A stretch of 64,000 nt of DNA, taken from assembly GCA_022843405.1 (NCBI GenBank), contig JALHNQ010000006.1, forward strand, positions 34,442 through 98,441. Reading direction: 5' to 3'. Below, in pieces: positions 7,246 to 43,434 of the stretch. The notes under the pieces were generated by a model that saw nothing but the letters and a program-made list of their open reading frames with translations, was not told where the DNA came from and did not search any database. The position numbers and the translations under genes were made by a program. Numbering within the stretch: position 1 is the stretch's first letter; each line of letters starts with the position of its first letter. The DNA is from Methylocystis sp. (GTDB taxonomy: Bacteria > Pseudomonadota > Alphaproteobacteria > Rhizobiales > Beijerinckiaceae).

Positions 7246-9159
7246 GTGCACTATATGGATCCATCTTACGCTCCGATTCTCCCCGCAGCGATCTCCGGGA
7301 CCCAGCCAAAGAAGAGTTCGGGCTTGGGTTCTGAATCTTTGTCGCTTCAAGGCGCAGCGCTAGGGCTGTCTGGCGACCAGCTGTTGCTTGATCAACGGTC
7401 AGACATTTGGTCCCACGCCCGAGTTCGCCACTTGCTCAGCGGCGAAACGCTTGTCGTACAGAACACGCCGGCCGACGCAGTCTTCCTTGTCGCCTCCGGA
7501 CGTTTCGAAATTCGTATCGAGGGACGGACCACTCCGGTAACTGAGGTTGGCGTCGGTCACCCAATCGGTGAAATCGCATTTTTTGCCGGTGGACTGCGCA
7601 CCGCGTCGGCTGTCGCAGTGCGCGATTCGATCGTGCTTGAGCTCGATCGCGCCGCGTTTTTCAAAGTCGTGAGCGGTGATCCGGCGGTTTATTATCGGTT
7701 ACTGACAAGCCTTGCTGGAAGGCTTGCTGAGACCACCGCCCGCATAGAAAGCAGCGTGGACGCCGTGACGCCGCGGACGTTAGCGCTAGTTCAAGCAGGG
7801 CAACGCCGTATCCCGGACCTTTTCATTTTGCGCTTGCAGAGGGCCTTTGCTGCTCGGGGCAAGTGTCTTTTTCTCAGTAGCGCGGACCTCAAGCAGCGCT
7901 TTCCGGATTTAGGGATTGACGACCCTTCGGTTGTTAGCTGGCTGAACGCCATCGAAAGCGAGTACGAGTTAATCCTCTATCTGACCGACGCGGAGCCCAC
8001 TAACTGGACGCGCAAGGCAATTCGACAGGCTGATCAGCTTGTTCTGCTGGGGTATGGTCCAGCTCCTCCAGACCTCAACAGCGTTGAGGAAATTGGGCTC
8101 GCATTTCACCCCCCTAGCCATCGAAGTCTGATACGAATTCATGACCAGCGCATATCGTTCACCGCTGGCACCAGCAAGTGGCTACGCAAGCGCGATGTGG
8201 CCATGCATCACCATGTCTCGATCGAAGACGACCGCGATTTTAAGCGTCTGCATCGTTTTTTCACAGGGCGGGCGGTTGGGTTCGTAGCGGGCGGCGGCGG
8301 CGGATTCGGTCCGGCGCATGCAGGTATCTTCAAGGCTTTTCAAGAGCGGGGCGTGGAGTTTGACATTTTAGGCGGATCGAGCGTCGGGGCGGCGGTTCTG
8401 GGAGGGTTCGCCCAACTCTTTACGCCCGCGGAACTTGACTTGGCTTTGGAGGATGTCTTTGTCGCCAGCCGGGGATTCAAACGTCGTACCCTTCCTAGGT
8501 ATTCGCTTCTAGACCATATCGCTTTGGATAAAGCGCTCCGACGCCTATGCCGGGGGGCGCATATCGAGGACTTGTGGATTCCTTATTTCGCCGTCGCGAC
8601 AGACGTGGATTGCGCCGCTCAAAGTTTACATCTCTTCCGCCGCGGACCTCTCTGGAAGGCGGTGCGCGCCTCTTGTTCTATCCCAGCAATTCTACCACCC
8701 ATGTTTACGGATGACGGTCGAATGTTGGTAGATGGAGCAGTAGTCGAAAACATACCTCTCTCTTCCATGAAACGTCTAAAGAGCGGTCCAAACCTTGTTG
8801 TGTACTTCGATGCCCCTCCCGCAGGGCCGCACGCGGTGAACTATGAAAGCATTCCCGGTCGTTGGGAATTGTTGGGCCGCCTTTTGAATCCCTTTGCACG
8901 GAAAAAGCTGCCAAACGTGCCTGGACCCGCTGACATGCTTCGCCGCTGCTTTAACGTCCGCCAAGGTCCAGCTCTGCTCCCAACAGGACCACATGATCTT
9001 CTCCTCGCTCCGCCACCATTTCCGGGCTCAAGCTTTATCGATTTCGATCGCCATTCAGATGTTCTCGAAGCGGCATACCAATGGTGCACAATTCAACTCG
9101 ATCGGCTCGAGGCAATACACGATCCAGCCCTTGAAGCAATTCTTGCAGCCAAAGGTTAG
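7246..9159 (+). CDS. cyclic nucleotide-binding domain + patatin-like phospholipase (NTE-like)
   Basis: cNMP-binding-type N-terminus (SGRFEIRIEGRTTPVTEVGVGHPIGEIAFFAGGLRTASAVAVRDS) and patatin motifs (GGGGFGPAHAGIFKAF, GGSSVGAA, DGAVVENIP); possible GTG 7246 or ATG 7255 start. Confidence 0.9.
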   Translation: MHYMDPSYAPILPAAISGTQPKKSSGLGSESLSLQGAALGLSGDQLLLDQRSDIWSHARVRHLLSGETLVVQNTPADAVFLVASGRFEIRIEGRTTPVTEVGVGHPIGEIAFFAGGLRTASAVAVRDSIVLELDRAAFFKVVSGDPAVYYRLLTSLAGRLAETTARIESSVDAVTPRTLALVQAGQRRIPDLFILRLQRAFAARGKCLFLSSADLKQRFPDLGIDDPSVVSWLNAIESEYELILYLTDAEPTNWTRKAIRQADQLVLLGYGPAPPDLNSVEEIGLAFHPPSHRSLIRIHDQRISFTAGTSKWLRKRDVAMHHHVSIEDDRDFKRLHRFFTGRAVGFVAGGGGGFGPAHAGIFKAFQERGVEFDILGGSSVGAAVLGGFAQLFTPAELDLALEDVFVASRGFKRRTLPRYSLLDHIALDKALRRLCRGAHIEDLWIPYFAVATDVDCAAQSLHLFRRGPLWKAVRASCSIPAILPPMFTDDGRMLVDGAVVENIPLSSMKRLKSGPNLVVYFDAPPAGPHAVNYESIPGRWELLGRLLNPFARKKLPNVPGPADMLRRCFNVRQGPALLPTGPHDLLLAPPPFPGSSFIDFDRHSDVLEAAYQWCTIQLDRLEAIHDPALEAILAAKG

Positions 9160-32996: not shown

Positions 32997-34199
32997 ATGT
33001 CGCGTGATCTTCAGGCTAAATGCCAAGTCTTACGCTTGTTGATCGGCGCCATAGTTTTGCTGGCATATAGCGCGGCGAAAGCCGAGGCTCCCTGTTTCGA
33101 GACCAGCGGGATTTTCGTTTGTTACGACAACGACGAATCAGTTTTCTACGCCACGCCCGAGAACCAGGTCGCCTACAACGTTCAGACTATTCACGATGGC
33201 GATAATTTTTATACGATCTATCATTCCGAACCCAGAACGCATTACAAGACGGGCGACGGCGTCAAGGCGGGCGCCCGTTCGGGTCCATATTCTTTCAAAA
33301 TGCCGCCGCACGACTTTCGCCTGTGGGGACCCGAAGACGATCCTGTGTCGCTGATGGCGTCTACGGGCACCGGGGGCGCGGCGAATCCAATCGCGATTTC
33401 GGGCCTTCCCGGCGACCCTTATTTTTATGTGTTTTTTTTGGGCGTCAACGACGACGAACAAATGCGCGATCTCGCACGTAGCCATTGGCGCCACTATCTG
33501 CTTGAGGCGCGCACGCGAGACTTTGTTTCCTTCGACTTGATGACCGATGCGGGATGGGCGCCGTTCTCGCCCGATATACGGCCCGCGCCGGTGCGGGATA
33601 CGGCGGGCGCCATCATACGCAGCAACTCGGCGCGCGTCCTCGGCCACACCCAGGGTCTCATCGGCTCGATCTCATTCGTGAACGGTCTCTATTACTTTTT
33701 CTATTTCGATTACGGACCCGACGGAAACGAGTTCAATCTCTACCTTCGCACCAGCACGGATGTCCGGCGTGGCGGATGGTCGCCCGCGAAGCTCGTACTT
33801 TCTTCGATTGGCCTTCGTATGGTTCGCGTGGCGAAAGCCTGGAATCTCGACAGATGGGCAGTAATGTATGGCTGCTATGTCGGAAACCTTCAGGACATCT
33901 GCGTTCAGTACACGCGAAGTCTGGATGTCTTCGGTCCTGGCGGCCTTAGCGATCTTCAGCTGACCTCGGACTTCGCGCTTGGTCTCGCGCGCGATGGACG
34001 AGCACGATCATTCGCGCAACCATATTGGCTCACCGACCGCTGGGGCAATCTCGACGCTCCGGACTCCAATGGAAGCATGGAGTTCTATTGGACGGACATG
34101 ACGCACTCGCAGTGTCTCGCCCATCCTTACCCGTTCTGTCCTGTTTATGGAGGGGCGGTACGCCGTGGAAGCTGGAGCGTCCATTCCGGGAGTCGATAG
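32997..34199 (+). CDS. secreted hypothetical protein, aromatic-rich, beta-propeller-like
   Basis: 400 aa with signal peptide (LLIGAIVLLAYSAAKAEA); repeating blocks such as YYFFYFDYGPDGNEFNLYLRTSTDV... and RDFVSFDLMTDAGWAPF. Confidence 0.6.
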   Translation: MSRDLQAKCQVLRLLIGAIVLLAYSAAKAEAPCFETSGIFVCYDNDESVFYATPENQVAYNVQTIHDGDNFYTIYHSEPRTHYKTGDGVKAGARSGPYSFKMPPHDFRLWGPEDDPVSLMASTGTGGAANPIAISGLPGDPYFYVFFLGVNDDEQMRDLARSHWRHYLLEARTRDFVSFDLMTDAGWAPFSPDIRPAPVRDTAGAIIRSNSARVLGHTQGLIGSISFVNGLYYFFYFDYGPDGNEFNLYLRTSTDVRRGGWSPAKLVLSSIGLRMVRVAKAWNLDRWAVMYGCYVGNLQDICVQYTRSLDVFGPGGLSDLQLTSDFALGLARDGRARSFAQPYWLTDRWGNLDAPDSNGSMEFYWTDMTHSQCLAHPYPFCPVYGGAVRRGSWSVHSGSR

Positions 34200-34512
34200 A
34201 TTGCGCCGCAAGCAGGACATACGGGTTCCCTTGGCGCGAGTTTTCTGACTCATTTGACGCAATGAGCCCCAGCCGAGTTTGTCAGCGGCGAAGCTAGCGG
34301 AATTCGCCAAGATTGTCGAAGCGGGGCCGGATCGTCATGCATTGGGCGCTACTTGCGCGCGCGGCGACTCAAGCGAAACGCTTGCACGGCGCCATGAGCG
34401 AATCTAAGAAAGCAATCGCCAAGTGAAGGCGACCTGAATTTCTTAGGCAATTCTTCGGCCGGACCGCGGCTAATCCTGCCGAGGCGTACCGTCCGAATGC
34501 AGGAGAAGAACC

Positions 34513-34950
34513 ATGCGTTTCGTAAACGTCGCCTTTGTCTTGTTGCTGACTACAGGTCTTACGGCCACCGCCGCCGCACAATCCTCAAACAAAATCTCGG
34601 TCAATGTCACCGGCTTGCGCGACGATGACGGCGTCGTGCGCTGCGGGCTCTACAATTCGGCGAGCACGTTTCGCCAGCCGGGCGCGCAATTCAAAGGCGT
34701 CATCGCCAAGATCAGCGGCGGGCAGGCGAACTGCGCGTTCAGCAACATTCCACCTGGCAATTACGCCGTCGCCTTATTCCATGCCGAGCACAACGAAACG
34801 GAGATCACGACCGGCGCGTTCGGCAAACCGCAGGAGGGCTTCGGCGTCTCCAATAATCCGTCAATGACCTTCGGCCCGCCGTCCTTCTCTGACGCCGCCT
34901 TCGATTACGCCGGCGGCCAGAAGTCGCTGACCGTTCGGGTCAACTATTGA
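34513..34950 (+). CDS. DUF2141 domain secreted protein
   Basis: ISVNVTGLRDDDGVVRCGLYNSASTF...CAFSNIPPGNYAVALFHAEHN...EGFGVSNNPS...DAAFDYAGG. Confidence 0.9.
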   Translation: MRFVNVAFVLLLTTGLTATAAAQSSNKISVNVTGLRDDDGVVRCGLYNSASTFRQPGAQFKGVIAKISGGQANCAFSNIPPGNYAVALFHAEHNETEITTGAFGKPQEGFGVSNNPSMTFGPPSFSDAAFDYAGGQKSLTVRVNY

Positions 34951-34952
34951 CG

Positions 34953-36371
34953 ATGCGGCCCGCGCCTGGCGAACAGCCCTGGAGCGCGGGCTTCCGCAGC
35001 CTTCCCGACGAGCGCGACTACCGCATCGAGGACATCGACGGCAGCGTGCCGCCCAGCCTGCGCGGGACCCTGTTTCGCAACGGCTCCGGCCGTAACGACC
35101 TCGCCGGCCAGTGGTTTCCCCACTGGTTCGACGGCGATGGCATGATCTCGGCGATCCGCTTTGACGAGACCGGCGTCCGCTACCAAAACCGCTATGTCCG
35201 CACCAAAAATTATGTCGACGAAACGCGCGCGGAACGCATCCTTTATCGCGGCTTCGGCAAGATGCGGCCGGGCGGCGCCCTCGCCAATATTTTTCGTTGG
35301 CCTGGAAATGTCTCCAATACTTCCGTGACGTTGCTCGGCGAGCGGCTGCTGACGCTCTGGGAGGGCGGACCGCCTTTCGCGCTCGAACCGAAGACGCTGT
35401 CGACGTTGGGTTTGGAGGATTTCGGCGGTCAGGTTCGCGCCTTCTCCGCGCATCCGAAAGTCGACCCCGTTACTGGAGAATTGTTCAACTTCGGAATCGA
35501 CTTTGGACTCAAGACGACGCTCACGCCTTATCGCATCGATTCTCGCGGCTTGACGCGGTTGGCGCCCGTCGCGCTGCCTTATCCCCTGATGAACCATGAT
35601 TTCGCGCTGACCGAGCGTTTCCTCGTTTTCTGCCTCGGTCCGATTCTCATGAGCCCGTTGAAGTTCATGCTGGGCTTCTCAAGTTTCGATGGCGCGCTTT
35701 CATGGGACGGTGGGCGTCCGACCCTAATCCTGCTCGTTTCGCGCGACGGTTCGGGGCCGCCCCGTTTCATCGAGGCGGAGCCATTCTTCCAGTTTCACTT
35801 CGCCAATGGCTTCGAGGAGGAGGGCGCGGTCGTTCTCGACTTCGCGCGCTATCCGGACTACGGCGCGATCGGCGACGCCCTGCGAAACTACTGGCGGTCG
35901 GACTTCAACGCGGACGGCATGGCGGAGTTCATGCGCTTGCGCGTCGATCTTGCGACCGGCGCCGTCGAGAGGCGCGTCTTCGAGACGGGTCCAGCCGTTG
36001 AATTTCCCAGGGTCAATCCGCGCGTCGTCTCCAAGCCCTATCGTTACGCCTATGTCGCCGACAACCGGCCAGGCCAGACCCTCGGGCTGCAGCAGCGCAT
36101 CACCCGCGTCGACCTCGATAGCGGCGCGACCATCTCACATGATTTCGGCCCCGACGGCTATGTGGGAGAACCCGTCTTCGCTCCCACCAGAGCCGACAGC
36201 GAGGAGGATGACGGCGTCGTGCTGACTCTCGTCTATAACGCCGCTCAGCGGCGCACGGCGATCGTCGGCCTTGACGCACGCGACCTGTCGGATCGGCCTT
36301 TATTCGTCGCGCGACTCAAACATCACGTGCCCTTCGCGCTGCATGGTCAGTTCACGGACCGGCTTTTCTAG
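34953..36371 (+). CDS. carotenoid oxygenase (apocarotenoid dioxygenase) family protein
   Basis: VPPSLRGTLFRNGSGRNDLAGQWFPHWFDGDGMISAIRF, SAHPKVDPVTGELFNFG, MNHDFALTERFLVF, QFHFANGFEEEGAVVLDFARY, HVPFALHGQF. Confidence 0.93.
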   Translation: MRPAPGEQPWSAGFRSLPDERDYRIEDIDGSVPPSLRGTLFRNGSGRNDLAGQWFPHWFDGDGMISAIRFDETGVRYQNRYVRTKNYVDETRAERILYRGFGKMRPGGALANIFRWPGNVSNTSVTLLGERLLTLWEGGPPFALEPKTLSTLGLEDFGGQVRAFSAHPKVDPVTGELFNFGIDFGLKTTLTPYRIDSRGLTRLAPVALPYPLMNHDFALTERFLVFCLGPILMSPLKFMLGFSSFDGALSWDGGRPTLILLVSRDGSGPPRFIEAEPFFQFHFANGFEEEGAVVLDFARYPDYGAIGDALRNYWRSDFNADGMAEFMRLRVDLATGAVERRVFETGPAVEFPRVNPRVVSKPYRYAYVADNRPGQTLGLQQRITRVDLDSGATISHDFGPDGYVGEPVFAPTRADSEEDDGVVLTLVYNAAQRRTAIVGLDARDLSDRPLFVARLKHHVPFALHGQFTDRLF

Positions 36372-36481: not shown

Positions 36482-36557
36482 TGGTGGAGCTGGGGGGATT
36501 CGAACCCCCGACCTCTGCAGTGCGATTGCAGCGCTCTCCCATCTGAGCTACAGCCCC
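36482..36557 (-). tRNA. tRNA-Ala (anticodon CGC), CCA encoded
   Basis: Reverse complement GGGGCTGTAGCTCAGATGGGAGAGCGCTGCAATCGCACTGCAGAGGTCGGGGGTTCGAATCCCCCCAGCTCCACCA folds as a cloverleaf. Confidence 0.94.
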
Positions 36558-36909
36558 GCTCCGGCGCGTGGGGTACACGGGGGGCGAAATCCTGTCAATT
36601 GGATTTGGCCGCAACGCGTAGCCAAGGCGGAGACGCGCTTGTCTTTCTCAATTTATGGCACATAATGAATTGATTACTCGGGGTTGAGGGACCGGGGCCA
36701 CGCCGTCGCGCGCGTTTGCGCTTGAGGGCGCCCTGCAAGCCATCAGCGGGGTCAGACATAGCAAAGCATATTGGTTGAGCGCTTCTCTTCCGCGATTTTG
36801 CGAAGGCTTTAGAGGCAAAACGGACGTTTTTTCCGGCGCGCATTAGCGCGCGAACGATTCGATAAAATTTTGTGCCGCCGTGCGGCGAAGTATTTGCGGA
36901 GTAGGCGTT

Positions 36910-39900
36910 ATGCTTGAGGACGGCAAGAAGAATTCGCCCGGAATCGGCGCCAATAGCGCCATCGTCGTCGCCTTGATCGCGACCGGGGCTTATTTTTACA
37001 CACAGCAGGCCCCGCTGACGGTGTTGCGTCCGCCGCCTTTGGAGTCGCGCATCGAGGAGAAATTCCGCACGCAGGACGTTGCGGCGCGGCAGTGGCAAGA
37101 CCCTTTCGACACGGTCGCTCGAGAAATCAAGAAGCGGGACAGCGACGCAGGTAAAAAGGAATGCGACGAGGGCGCTGCGCCTAGAAAGAAGAGCGCTTCG
37201 AAAACCCGACCTGCGCTCGCCCTCCATTGCCGTTCTCCCTTGTTTGAGGAAAGCGGAAAATTCAAGCCGGAGTCCGAGGATATTCGCGTGGTCGGCGTCA
37301 CCGCTCCTGGCGCGCCCTATTTCGAAGACGCTGAAACGCGTCGACGGTTGCGATATGCGATTCTCAGCGGGCTGCATCTGGAGGGCTATTTGCCCCAGAA
37401 CGAGCAGCAAATCGGCTATTTCCGCCCAAAGAGTCACGAAGAGAAAGGGTTGCCCGCGGCCATTCCCTTTGAATGGTTCGATCACGAGCCTGCGCAGCAC
37501 AAGATTGTGCTGCTGTGGATCGACGAGGACGTGCTGGGCGACACGCATCAGCCGCTTGAAAGACTGTCACGGCTGCAAAATGAATTGTGCGCGGAGAAAA
37601 AAAATTCAGGGCGTTGCCCGCCCTTGCAGATATTGGGGCCGTATTCGTCTGGCGTTCTTCGCGACCTGGTAAAAGAAATGAAAGATTCGAAATCTGCGGC
37701 TTCGCCCGAGAATATTCGTTTTTACTCATTCGCCGCGACGATCAGCGACAAGGACTTGGGAGCGGCGCCAACGCCCGAGCGCATATTTCGGATAAGTTCT
37801 GGAGACAATGTGCTGGCACAGGCGATCGGAGCGGAACTGTGCCTGAGAAGCAAAAGTTCCGTCGCTGCCGTAAGCCAGAATGGCGGCAAGGAAGGCGCCC
37901 CGGCCTGTTTAGGCAAGCAGCATGTCGCTCTGATTTCCGATCGAGATACGCTTTATGGACGCGCCATCGTCGATGCATTCATGCGCGACCTGCGTTGTCT
38001 GCATACGAAAAGCGACGATCAATACAATCAATGTGTTTCAATGTCGCCCAATGAGATGGCGCCGCCGGCGTGGATTCTCAAACGCACCTATCTGCGCGGG
38101 ATCGACGGGCTGCTGCCTCCCGCCAACCTCAATAAGTCTTCGAAGAAAGAGGGCGACGCTAAGGAATCGGGCGAAGGACCAAGGCCGCAGGACATTTCAA
38201 AATCATTTGAGCGCGCCTTCGGCCAGGACCAATTCGACTATCTACGAAGGCTTGCGGCGAGTCTGAAAGAGAAAGACGCCGATCTTAGGCGCAATGGCAA
38301 AGACGGCATAAAGGCGATCGGCGTTCTGGGCTTCGACGTTTTCGATAAGTTGCTCGTGCTGCGCGCGCTAAAGCCGTTGTTTCCCGAAGCGGTGTTTTTC
38401 ACCACCGACTATGACGCCGCCCTCGCCGGGCGCGACGAGATCGAATGGAGCCGCAATTTGATTGTCGCTTCGAGCTACGGGCCGACCTTAGCTGACGACA
38501 TTCAGGGCGAGGCCCCGCCATTCCGGTCAACCTACCAAAGCGCGGCCTTTTTGGCGGCGCGCATGGCGGCGCAGGAAAGGGAACCGAATGTTCGGAGCCC
38601 GCTGCGCAGCAGGATCAATAATAGCATTGGCGCGGCGCGGCTCTTTGAGATCGATCGCCATGGCGAATTTCTCGCTCTGCCGACGATGAGTGAGTCGCGA
38701 AAGAGCAACAAGCTGACAAGCGACAACAAAGACATTCCGACAATTCGAACGCAATACGCCGCGCTGGATGGGGCTGCAATATCGCCGCCGCCGGAAGAGA
38801 AGCCGGGTCAGATACGCGAGAATGGAGTCCATCCGCCCATTCCGCCGCTATACTCGGAATTGGCGCCTGGGAGCGTCAGGCACATTGCGATCGTCCTGGC
38901 GCTGATCGGCGTTATCGTGCCGTTTCTATTCTGGCGGCTCTTTCCGTTCCTCAAAGCCACATCGGCGTGCATGGCTCTAATTTTCCTGTCTGGAACGGCG
39001 CTCGTCCTTCGGTGGGATCAATTTGCCGAATATGCCACGGAGGGTGGGCTCGGCGAACCAATCGCCTGGACGCAAGGCGTCAGCATGTGGCCGTCGCTCG
39101 GCTTGAGAGTCATCGCAGCCCTTTTGGCTGTCTGTCTTATCCTCGACGCTTTGCGGGAACTCAGGGATAATCAGAAGAGAGTGGAGGAGCGGTTTTTTCT
39201 TCCAAAGGCTGGGTCATGGTCTGCCGAAGAACATGATAAGGGAGCGATTCGGAAGCTATGGTCGGCAGTCTGTCGCTATGTTAATATGCTTTGCTATAGT
39301 TTGCCACATGATAAAGATAGTGGCGCAAAGATTGATGTAGATCAGATATGGAAATACTATACGCTAAAAAGCAAATTTGTTCCGAGCTTCTTACGAATTA
39401 TTTTAATAACTGGAATAATGTTTCTTCTATATAAGCTTTTAATTGTCTTGTTTGGCGATCCTAACGTGCCTTGGCGCGGCGAGCTGCATAAAATATATAA
39501 AGATGTGACTTGGCCTCTTGTCCTGCTGTTGCTGTTCCTGACGTTCCTGGTGTTCGACGCGACATTGCTTTGTCTGCGGTTTGTCGACGTTCTTCGCAAG
39601 AATAGAACCATTTGGCCGCCGGATACACATAGAGGTTTTGGGGATATATTCAATTTCCAGGATCTCTTGCTTGACGAATGGATAGATCTCGATTTCCTGG
39701 CCGTGCGCACGCGCTGCATCAGTCGTCTTATCTATTTCCCCTTCGCGATTTTTGCGCTGATGATTGCTTCGCGCAGCACGGCATTTGCTGAATTCGCGCT
39801 TAGCTGGCCGATCATCATTACGCAAGTCGTCGGCTGCGTGATTATTTTCGGTTGCGCCATGCTCCTTTGCTTCAGCGCCGAAAAGGCCCGCGAGACGACG

Positions 39901-40119
39901 AAACATAAGCTGATGAAGGGGATGGTCGCCGCCAAAGCGGCCGACCCCTCCGGTCGGAAGGCCGCGCAGCTCGAAACGCTGCTCAAACTCGTCGATGAAC
40001 TGCGCGAAGGCTCCTTCGTGCCGCTTTCGCAACAGCCGCCTATTCGCGCATTGCTGCTGCCGCTTGGCGGCCTCGGCTGGACGGCGCTGCTCGATTCCCG
40101 GATTTTTCCCGGCCTCTAG
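36910..40119 (+). CDS. large membrane protein: N-terminal TM anchor, type I periplasmic-binding-protein-like ectodomain, about 7 C-terminal TM helices, cytosolic tail
   Basis: 1069 aa from ATG 36910 (GGAGTAGG upstream); PBP-I-like elements (LQILGPYSSGVLRDLVKEM, RISSGDNVLAQAIGAEL, HVALISDRDTLYGRAIVDAFMRDL, AIGVLGFDVFDKLLVLRALKPLFPEAVFFTTDYDAALAG); hydrophobic helices from 38881 onward. Confidence 0.75.
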   Translation: MLEDGKKNSPGIGANSAIVVALIATGAYFYTQQAPLTVLRPPPLESRIEEKFRTQDVAARQWQDPFDTVAREIKKRDSDAGKKECDEGAAPRKKSASKTRPALALHCRSPLFEESGKFKPESEDIRVVGVTAPGAPYFEDAETRRRLRYAILSGLHLEGYLPQNEQQIGYFRPKSHEEKGLPAAIPFEWFDHEPAQHKIVLLWIDEDVLGDTHQPLERLSRLQNELCAEKKNSGRCPPLQILGPYSSGVLRDLVKEMKDSKSAASPENIRFYSFAATISDKDLGAAPTPERIFRISSGDNVLAQAIGAELCLRSKSSVAAVSQNGGKEGAPACLGKQHVALISDRDTLYGRAIVDAFMRDLRCLHTKSDDQYNQCVSMSPNEMAPPAWILKRTYLRGIDGLLPPANLNKSSKKEGDAKESGEGPRPQDISKSFERAFGQDQFDYLRRLAASLKEKDADLRRNGKDGIKAIGVLGFDVFDKLLVLRALKPLFPEAVFFTTDYDAALAGRDEIEWSRNLIVASSYGPTLADDIQGEAPPFRSTYQSAAFLAARMAAQEREPNVRSPLRSRINNSIGAARLFEIDRHGEFLALPTMSESRKSNKLTSDNKDIPTIRTQYAALDGAAISPPPEEKPGQIRENGVHPPIPPLYSELAPGSVRHIAIVLALIGVIVPFLFWRLFPFLKATSACMALIFLSGTALVLRWDQFAEYATEGGLGEPIAWTQGVSMWPSLGLRVIAALLAVCLILDALRELRDNQKRVEERFFLPKAGSWSAEEHDKGAIRKLWSAVCRYVNMLCYSLPHDKDSGAKIDVDQIWKYYTLKSKFVPSFLRIILITGIMFLLYKLLIVLFGDPNVPWRGELHKIYKDVTWPLVLLLLFLTFLVFDATLLCLRFVDVLRKNRTIWPPDTHRGFGDIFNFQDLLLDEWIDLDFLAVRTRCISRLIYFPFAIFALMIASRSTAFAEFALSWPIIITQVVGCVIIFGCAMLLCFSAEKARETTKHKLMKGMVAAKAADPSGRKAAQLETLLKLVDELREGSFVPLSQQPPIRALLLPLGGLGWTALLDSRIFPGL

Positions 40120-40206: not shown

Positions 40207-40500
40207 ATGTCCTACGCCATGGTCAAACTGCTTCTCACGGTCATCGACATTTACTGGTGGATCCTGCTCGCCACGGTGGTCGTGTCCTGGCTCATCGCCT
40301 TCGATGTCATCAACATGCGCTCGAACGCCGCCTATTCGATCTGGAAATGGCTGAACGCCGTCACCGAGCCAGTGCTCGGGCCAATCCGCTCGGTGCTGCC
40401 GAGCGTCGGCGGGCTGGACATTTCGCCGCTCATTTTGCTGCTGCTCATGCAATTCCTGCGCGATCTCATCGCCACCAGCGCCGGCGCCGCATTTGGGTGA
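40207..40500 (+). CDS. YggT family membrane protein
   Basis: IDIYWWILLATVVVSWLIAFDVIN...LNAVTEPVLGPIRSVLPSVGGLDISPLILLLLMQFLRDL. Confidence 0.92.
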   Translation: MSYAMVKLLLTVIDIYWWILLATVVVSWLIAFDVINMRSNAAYSIWKWLNAVTEPVLGPIRSVLPSVGGLDISPLILLLLMQFLRDLIATSAGAAFG

Positions 40501-41945: not shown

Positions 41946-42362
41946 ATGAACAAAACTTTGCTCGTTGCGCTTTCCTTGGGCGTGGCCATGGCGGTCGCGC
42001 AGCCTGTCTTCGCCGAGCCGGCTGCGCCGGACAGCAAGATCGTCGTGCCGATGGAAGCGTTGCCGCGCTATGGCTCGCTCGTTTCCGCTTGGTACAAGAA
42101 GCCTGTCTACGACACCAATGAGAAGAAAGTCGGCGTGATTACCGACATGCTGTTTTCCGGCGGCGAGATCAACGCTGTCATGCTCGATGTTGGCGGTTTT
42201 CTTGGCATCGGCGCCAAGCATGTCGCCATTCCTGCGGAAGCCATCACCGTCACCGAGAAGAACAACAAGAGCTGGTTGACCATCAATACGACGAAGGACG
42301 TCGTGAAGAAGGCGACCGGCTATAAATATGACGCGAAGGAACACGCCTGGAAGAAGATGTAG
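41946..42362 (+). CDS. exported PRC-barrel domain protein, paralogue 1
   Basis: Signal peptide; LVSAWYKKPVYDTNEKKVGVITDMLFSGGEINAVMLDVGGFLGIGAKHVAIPAEAI. Confidence 0.88.
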   Translation: MNKTLLVALSLGVAMAVAQPVFAEPAAPDSKIVVPMEALPRYGSLVSAWYKKPVYDTNEKKVGVITDMLFSGGEINAVMLDVGGFLGIGAKHVAIPAEAITVTEKNNKSWLTINTTKDVVKKATGYKYDAKEHAWKKM

Positions 42363-42433
42363 CAAACGCCGGAGCGACGGCGTCGCTCCGCCCGCGCCGC
42401 GCCGCGTCATACTTTTTCCCTAGGGAGTTTTTC

Positions 42434-42853
42434 ATGCTGAAACAAGTCGTCTTCGCAGCCTCGCTCGCCCTTGTCGCCTTCGCGCCATTGCCGGTCGGCG
42501 CGCAACAGGCCCAAACCGAAACCATGGTCATTGTGCCGCTCGAACGGTTGCCGGTCTATGGTTCGGTGGTTTCCGCGTGGTACAAACAGCCGGTCTATGA
42601 CCCCAATGAAAAGAAGCTCGGCACGATCGCCGACATGCTGTTTTCCGCCGACGGCTCGATAAATGCGGTGATGCTGAACGTCGGCGGTTTTCTGGGCATC
42701 GGCGTGAAGCACATTGCCATTCCGGTTTCCGCGATCACCATCATACAGAAGAACAGCAAGACTTGGCTGACGATGAACACGACTAAAGAACTGCTCAAGA
42801 AGGCCGTCGCATATAAGTTCGACAAGGCCACCGGCCTTTGGGATCCGATCTGA
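42434..42853 (+). CDS. exported PRC-barrel domain protein, paralogue 2
   Basis: Signal peptide; VVSAWYKQPVYDPNEKKLGTIADMLFSADGSINAVMLNVGGFLGIGVKHIAIP. Confidence 0.88.
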   Translation: MLKQVVFAASLALVAFAPLPVGAQQAQTETMVIVPLERLPVYGSVVSAWYKQPVYDPNEKKLGTIADMLFSADGSINAVMLNVGGFLGIGVKHIAIPVSAITIIQKNSKTWLTMNTTKELLKKAVAYKFDKATGLWDPI

Positions 42854-42999
42854 ACGGCGAAGCTTTTTTCAACGCGCGGCAGACTTCAACCAAATCGGAT
42901 ATCTGCCGCGAAGCTTGGAACATCGGTCTCCGATGCTTGTTCTAGGCTCATGCGAACAGTCGTTCGTTGTGACGCCAACAAACATGCACGGAGTTAGCC

Positions 43000-43434
43000 A
43001 TGCTCAAGTCCTATGCCCTCGCCGGCGCGCTCGTCGCGACGCTGTCAGCCGCGGCTTTGGCCGAACAGACGATGAATCGCACGACAGGCGCGACGACTGG
43101 CGGGCCGGAATTCCTGACGACGCTTCCGCAAAACGCCTTGCTGGTCTCGAACATTCACGAGCAGAATGTTTACGATCCGCGCGAGAGCAAGATCGGCGAA
43201 GTCAAGGATCTGGTGCTGGATCGCAGCGGCAAGATCACCGTCGCGATCATTTCGGTCGGCGGATTTCTCGGCATCGGCGAAAAAGACGTCGCGGTCGCCT
43301 TCAGCGACATCATGGCGACCGAGCGCGACAGCAAATGGTGGCTCACCGTGAACGCCACCAAGGATGAGCTAAAGAAGGCCACGGGCTTCCGCTTCGACAA
43401 GAACAAGGGATCGTGGACGCTCGGCGCCAAGTAA
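43000..43434 (+). CDS. exported PRC-barrel domain protein, paralogue 3
   Basis: Signal peptide; EQNVYDPRESKIGEVKDLVLDRSGKITVAIISVGGFLGIGEKDVAVAF. Confidence 0.88.
   Translation: MLKSYALAGALVATLSAAALAEQTMNRTTGATTGGPEFLTTLPQNALLVSNIHEQNVYDPRESKIGEVKDLVLDRSGKITVAIISVGGFLGIGEKDVAVAFSDIMATERDSKWWLTVNATKDELKKATGFRFDKNKGSWTLGAK

Follow-up and report, generated by a model that had tools for sequence, protein, structure and literature searches.

The gene and its genomic context

The window analysed here is a stretch of 64,000 nucleotides from Methylocystis sp. (contig JALHNQ010000006.1). On its forward strand, at 36910..40119, lies an ORF with the boundaries given in the first-pass annotation, coding for a protein of 1069 aa that is predicted to comprise an N-terminal anchor, a periplasmic ectodomain resembling the type I periplasmic binding proteins (PBP-I), a seven-helix membrane half and a C-terminal tail. 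A probable ribosome-binding site, GGAG, recognised from the sequence (36896..36909, forward strand), is placed about 10 nt before the ATG at 36910, which aligns with the start positions of the homologues. The frame is preserved among the homologues and dN/dS between the gene and its nearest homologue is 0.34, as against 0.035 for a neighbouring MaoC-type gene; hence, the ORF is genuine and the gene is under constraint, yet fast-evolving. Promoter and terminator scans around the gene returned nothing above chance.

The gene is flanked, as noted earlier, by tRNA-Ala and yggT: the divergent tRNA-Ala(CGC) gene upstream (36482..36557, reverse strand) occupies the same position across the genus, and yggT downstream (40207..40500, forward strand) belongs to the same genus-wide locus. 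Further upstream, between usp and the tRNA gene, positions 32997-36371 hold three genes, one for an RPE65-family carotenoid oxygenase (E 8e-124), one of the DUF2141 type and one uncharacterised; none of them was seen at the corresponding position in the genomes of relatives, L022 for example. On the other side, at 41946-43434, there are three related genes in tandem, the first coding for a PRC-barrel protein by its Pfam match, and this triplet is kept genus-wide. The window also has a patatin-like phospholipase gene at about 8287-8763 (forward strand), which is not adjacent but some 28 kb away from the 1069-aa gene.

An unnamed family of inner-membrane proteins

The protein has no match in Pfam, NCBIfam, PADLOC or PHROGs, consistent with the earlier failure to recognise a named family. 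Its description as an orphan holds within the window but not beyond it, as we were able to assemble 30 near-full-length members, a lower bound for the size of the family. Pfam searches with 13 members and five distant ones found no 7TMR-DISM, kinase, GGDEF, EAL or PAS domain; neither a catalytic domain nor an enzyme family was detected in the family-library searches, PDB sequence searches gave matches at chance level only, and among open-access papers we found no description of this architecture. A Pfam hit to DO-GTPase1 (E 0.32) was rejected as chance, and the PADLOC models gave no meaningful anti-phage defence match. We also discarded a phage or viral origin, since neither phage records nor viral contigs gave a match, and the membership of a weakly matching ORF (G1124/L146) that lacks the remainder of the protein. 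Taken together, these proteins form a real, conserved and unnamed bacterial inner-membrane family with a PBP-I-like ectodomain.

The topology was predicted for the 30 members from hydropathy averaged over 19 residues and positive-inside counts. Eight hydrophobic helices are predicted, namely an N-terminal anchor and seven helices beyond residue 655, and this pattern recurs in nearly all of the 30 homologues. The anchor, TM1 (36940..36996, forward strand), is a hydropathy peak at residues 11-29, while the membrane half (38884..39867, forward strand) has its helices at residues 659-677, 681-699, 730-748, 830-848, 870-888, 936-954 and 968-986, with basic, predicted cytosolic loops at residues 749-829 and 889-935. 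The density of K+R per 100 residues is 25, 16 and 16 in the predicted cytosolic loops and 13 in the tail, as opposed to 3, 10 and 8 in the periplasmic loops. This charge distribution places both ends of the protein inside and a domain of about 620 aa in the periplasm; thus, the ectodomain (residues 33-655) is predicted to be periplasmic and the N- and C-termini cytosolic. The anchor, the seven helices and the alternation of basic loops proposed on first inspection are all borne out by these results.

The end of the protein required correction. The segment EKARETTKHKLMKGM had been taken as the terminus, but about 65 further residues come after it. These include a hydrophobic motif, GSFVPLSQQPPIRALLLPLGGLGWTAL (residues 1034-1060; 40009..40089, forward strand), which is conserved in the alignments, with the consensus G(S/A)FxPxSQQPxxRALLLPxGG within the last 36 residues, and might form an extra or re-entrant helix. 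As it passes the helix threshold in about 10 of the 30 members, we count seven helices in the membrane half, possibly eight.

The ectodomain and its probable relationship to type I periplasmic binding proteins

The ectodomain (37006..38874, forward strand) is delimited by the positive-inside balance of the 30 members and by alternating beta and alpha propensity, the latter extending along residues 120-560. To compare it with known folds, its profile was aligned using hhalign to one made from about 30 Peripla_BP_6 proteins of related genomes. This gave a score of 41.1 (E 1.8e-4, probability 49%) over residues ~237-363, i.e., a stretch at 37618..37998 (forward strand) that contains GPYSS, FYSFAAT, R-(x)n-LAxAIxxEL and VALISDRDTLYGRA. 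The two profiles pair in an order-preserving manner through GPYSS, FYSFAAT, the R...LA..I..EL helix and VALISDRDTLYG, with DTLYG also aligned. The controls scored much lower, with 60 column shuffles reaching at most 20.2, reversed profiles 14-17, SDR proteins 12.9 and response regulators 15.5. With the broader alignment of 30 members the score was 34.6 (E 1.6e-3, 163 columns), against at most 20.7 in 150 shuffles. The match spans about 126 of the 620 ectodomain residues, and the C-terminal core corresponding to the second lobe did not by itself match the PBP profile significantly (E 0.2).

AlphaFold models of the ectodomain, either alone or with one homologue and with no usable alignment, had a pLDDT of 37-38, and Foldseek run on such a model retrieved only low-TM noise matches. 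Of the type-I-PBP-like ectodomain proposed in the first-pass annotation, a distant profile relationship stands, limited to residues ~237-363; we consider it likely that the ectodomain is distantly related to the type I PBPs, and it may adopt the complete bilobed PBP-I fold. With Peripla_BP_6 proteins of the LivJ/LivK type it shares the ordered motifs, the profile similarity and the alternating alpha/beta pattern. It differs from them in escaping the Pfam model, in being fused to a membrane bundle, in having a long lysine-rich insert at ~400-430 and a strictly conserved core of its own, and in that no ABC transporter genes were recognised near the gene.

That core, the most conserved part of the family, lies at residues 430-550 (38197..38559, forward strand) and reads GQDQFDYLRRL ... 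GVLGxDVFDKLLVLRAL...FPEAVFFTTDYD ... RNLIVASSYG ... PPFRSTYQ. Mean identity between the members from the window's taxonomic family and all others is 47% in this region and 22% in the membrane half, the least conserved part, where few polar residues within the helices are invariant across the 30 members. Just outside TM1 there is an R-x-W-Q-D-P motif (residues 60-65; 37087..37104, forward strand), of which R60, W62, D64 and P65 are nearly invariant in the 30 members. The same is true of E142, R144, R146 and R148, G243 and P244, Y349, and D443, Y444, R446 and R447, as well as of D476, D479 and K480, D500 and D502, R515 and N516, and R539. Given the contrast between core and membrane half, together with these residues, the simplest reading is that the ectodomain carries a ligand or interface common to the family.

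Phyletic distribution and repeated loss

The family occurs in the methanotroph-rich taxonomic family of the window and patchily elsewhere in Pseudomonadota. Matches were found in 13 of 37 genomes of the window's genus, comprising nine whole or contig-split genes and four 3' remnants. Eight of the nine genes lie at the tRNA-Ala/yggT site; only that of G012 is located elsewhere. The remnants (L027, L028, L029 and L030, from G017, G005, G024 and G016) are likewise found between tRNA-Ala and yggT, and retain only the residues from approximately 968, 973, 1016 and 1027 onward. As these 3' remnants of different length lie between the same flanks, the gene was evidently once present and has been lost several times. 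The remnants form a nested deletion series.

Beyond the genus, three further genera of the same taxonomic family have the protein. A survey of 398 genomes of the order and 290 of the class, with no more than two candidates scored in each genome such that distant copies may be missed, recovered the window's own copy only. A phylum-wide search reached distant members in the taxonomic families f216 and f237. Carriers number 13 among 300 genomes from the order to which f237 belongs and five among 78 from the class to which f216 belongs, one of the five having a remnant. In the phylogenetic tree, all 13 copies from the window's family fall on one side of a branch (100/100). Among the distant members, one locus (L178:783-5601) has two family members in tandem, and another (L143:6263-10318) codes for a version of 1351 aa, in which TM1 is separated from the ectodomain by a coiled-coil insert of about 280 residues; PADLOC matches to LmuB, Druantia and Jet at the latter locus fall on this insert only and were set aside. 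Plasmid carriage was rejected as a general feature, as it is confined to one truncated copy on pMSC49b (NZ_AP022334.1) of Methylosinus sp. C49 (L034:8001-8459). This copy stops at about residue 141, beside an apparent inserted gene on the opposite strand.

The window's genome has genes of the pmoA/amoA family, as do most tested carriers of its taxonomic family. They are also matched in three identical-scoring copies in f237, whose bearer looks from the sequence like a betaproteobacterial ammonia oxidiser. A strictly methanotroph-specific gene is excluded, since G001 and G626 carry it with no pmoA-family match, as do the f216 carriers.

Gene neighborhoods and a possible association with lipases

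At the loci examined in the window's family, we found no conserved partner gene beyond the shared locus, and none had a recognised lipase neighbour. Outside this family, several members are the last gene in same-strand clusters of hydrolases and phospholipases. For instance, in L179 (7947-13605) a class-3 lipase and a patatin precede the family gene with gaps of <40 bp; in L181 (5044-11117) the order is papain-like protease, patatin and family gene; and in L184 (1521-10978) a patatin, one further gene and a Tle1-like lipase lead up to it. In L143 (2701-12332), a Tle1-like lipase, an uncharacterised protein and a PG-binding protein are followed by the family gene and then a PhoD-like gene, all on the same strand. 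Thus, the Tle1-like lipase is three genes upstream of the family gene in L143 and immediately upstream in L184. In L187, an alpha/beta hydrolase (DUF900) is convergent with the family gene. Of the three patatin genes in G1335, two each adjoin one of its two family members, themselves only 36% identical to each other. A different context is seen in L175, where genes for a response regulator and for what appears to be a histidine kinase come after the family gene on the same strand.

A patatin gene within three genes of a family member was observed three times against an expectation of 0.10, giving a Poisson P of 1.7e-4; for patatin adjacency overall the post-hoc P is about 2-6e-4, the test having been framed after the neighbours had been inspected. 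Among the 19 loci from outside the window's family, four have a lipase neighbour (five with the convergent DUF900 hydrolase), while about 14 lack a recognised one. The lipase-containing clusters of L143, L179, L181 and L184 possibly represent an undescribed lipase-linked system; no lipase system is known to include a protein with a PBP domain plus a helix bundle. The present family resembles the patatin and Tle1-like phospholipase clusters to the extent that some of its members end such clusters, unlike the window's copy, which has no lipase neighbour.

Comparison with known receptor architectures

The first-pass annotation had drawn a parallel with the class C receptors, in which a flytrap ectodomain is followed by about seven helices and a cytosolic tail (PMC2670285). 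The order of parts predicted here is the same. However, the present protein has an additional N-terminal helix, for a total of eight, as well as no cysteine-rich domain and no sequence similarity in its helices. There is no cysteine in residues 595-655, where a cysteine-rich linker would be placed; such a linker is likewise absent from the GABA-B receptors. No GPCR family model appears among the Pfam matches of the 13 members, and in a PDB profile search the best natural GPCR was GPR21, which is not of class C and scored at chance level (E 1.6). As for the flytrap itself, the likeness consists solely in the distant PBP-I profile similarity. Bacteria are not known to have G proteins or a G-protein system. 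Accordingly, the parallel survives as one of layout: the resemblance is an analogy only, and the protein is not a member of class C.

A bacterial counterpart might be sought in the 7TMR-DISM receptors, which combine a seven-helix receptor-like membrane unit with a periplasmic sensor, their ectodomains being DISMED1/2 and their cytosolic parts kinases, GGDEF/EAL or PAS domains (PMC6107284). The likeness extends to the seven-helix unit and the predicted periplasmic sensor, but the ectodomain here is PBP-like rather than DISMED1/2 and no output domain is recognised. On its sequence features, then, it does not classify as a 7TMR-DISM receptor.

Functional interpretation

We tentatively favour, with a confidence somewhat short of even, the view that these proteins are periplasmic sensors of the flytrap type, which signal via the helix bundle to separate cytosolic partners. 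We infer ligand binding, signalling and partners along the following lines. A type-I-PBP-like flytrap domain, tethered in the periplasm by TM1 and a bundle of about seven helices, would bind a small ligand or protein that varies little or not at all across the family. Its closure would be transmitted by the bundle to the basic loops in the cytosol and to the C-terminal tail. As these contain no recognisable enzyme, they would need a separate partner to act upon, which in some lineages would be a lipase-type hydrolase and in others perhaps a two-component pair. Against this stand the low pLDDT of the ectodomain models, the short span of the PBP match and its weaker E-value with the broader alignment, and the lack of a conserved partner gene in the window and its relatives.

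Type I PBPs mostly serve importers, a highly conserved ectodomain core would fit a single substrate, and the family-library searches found no signalling domain. The family could therefore be a transporter, in which a binding protein is joined to a permease or channel of its own, with the ectodomain passing a solute to the helix bundle for crossing the inner membrane. We regard this as unlikely: the Pfam and NCBIfam searches found neither an ABC ATPase nor a permease domain assigned to any known family of transporters, no transporter partner was recognised in the neighborhoods examined, and it is precisely the membrane half that is least conserved and poor in invariant polar residues. The same-strand clusters and the excess of nearby patatins would instead suit a protein that regulates or anchors the adjacent phospholipases or confers immunity against them, lone copies being leftovers or guards against foreign lipases; the patchy loss and fast evolution of the gene relative to its MaoC-type neighbour are in keeping with this. 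It too is unlikely, given that most outside loci and all those examined in the window's family have no recognised lipase neighbour, that the adjacency test was chosen after the neighbours were seen, that no lipase was recognised upstream of the 81%-identical copy in G1441 within the reach of its short contig, and that the protein greatly exceeds the known lipase immunity proteins in size.

The invariant charged residues (R144, R146, R148, D443, R446, R447, D476, D479, K480, D500, D502, R515, N516 and R539) exceed what a binding cleft usually needs, and L143 has PG-binding and PhoD-like neighbours. These features could point to a membrane enzyme or envelope-maintenance protein, acting for example on lipids or the cell wall, whose ectodomain is a Rossmann-type alpha/beta domain that is merely PBP-like. 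Such a function appears distinctly improbable in view of the absence of any detected enzyme family and the failure of the SDR and response-regulator profiles to match where the PBP profiles do. Returning to the favoured flytrap-type sensor, its boldest form, in which bacterial receptors of an undescribed class would have reached the class C layout independently and would in some lineages gate a lipase system by ligand, is rather improbable.

The family numbers at least 30 near-full-length members, spread over several lineages of Pseudomonadota, and was missed by the family libraries used. If its ectodomain binds a small ligand, these proteins would be bacterial receptors built like those of class C but without their descent. 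They would then offer, in a simple and genetically tractable setting, a direct test of how a flytrap drives a helix bundle and of a possible role in lipase control in some lineages.
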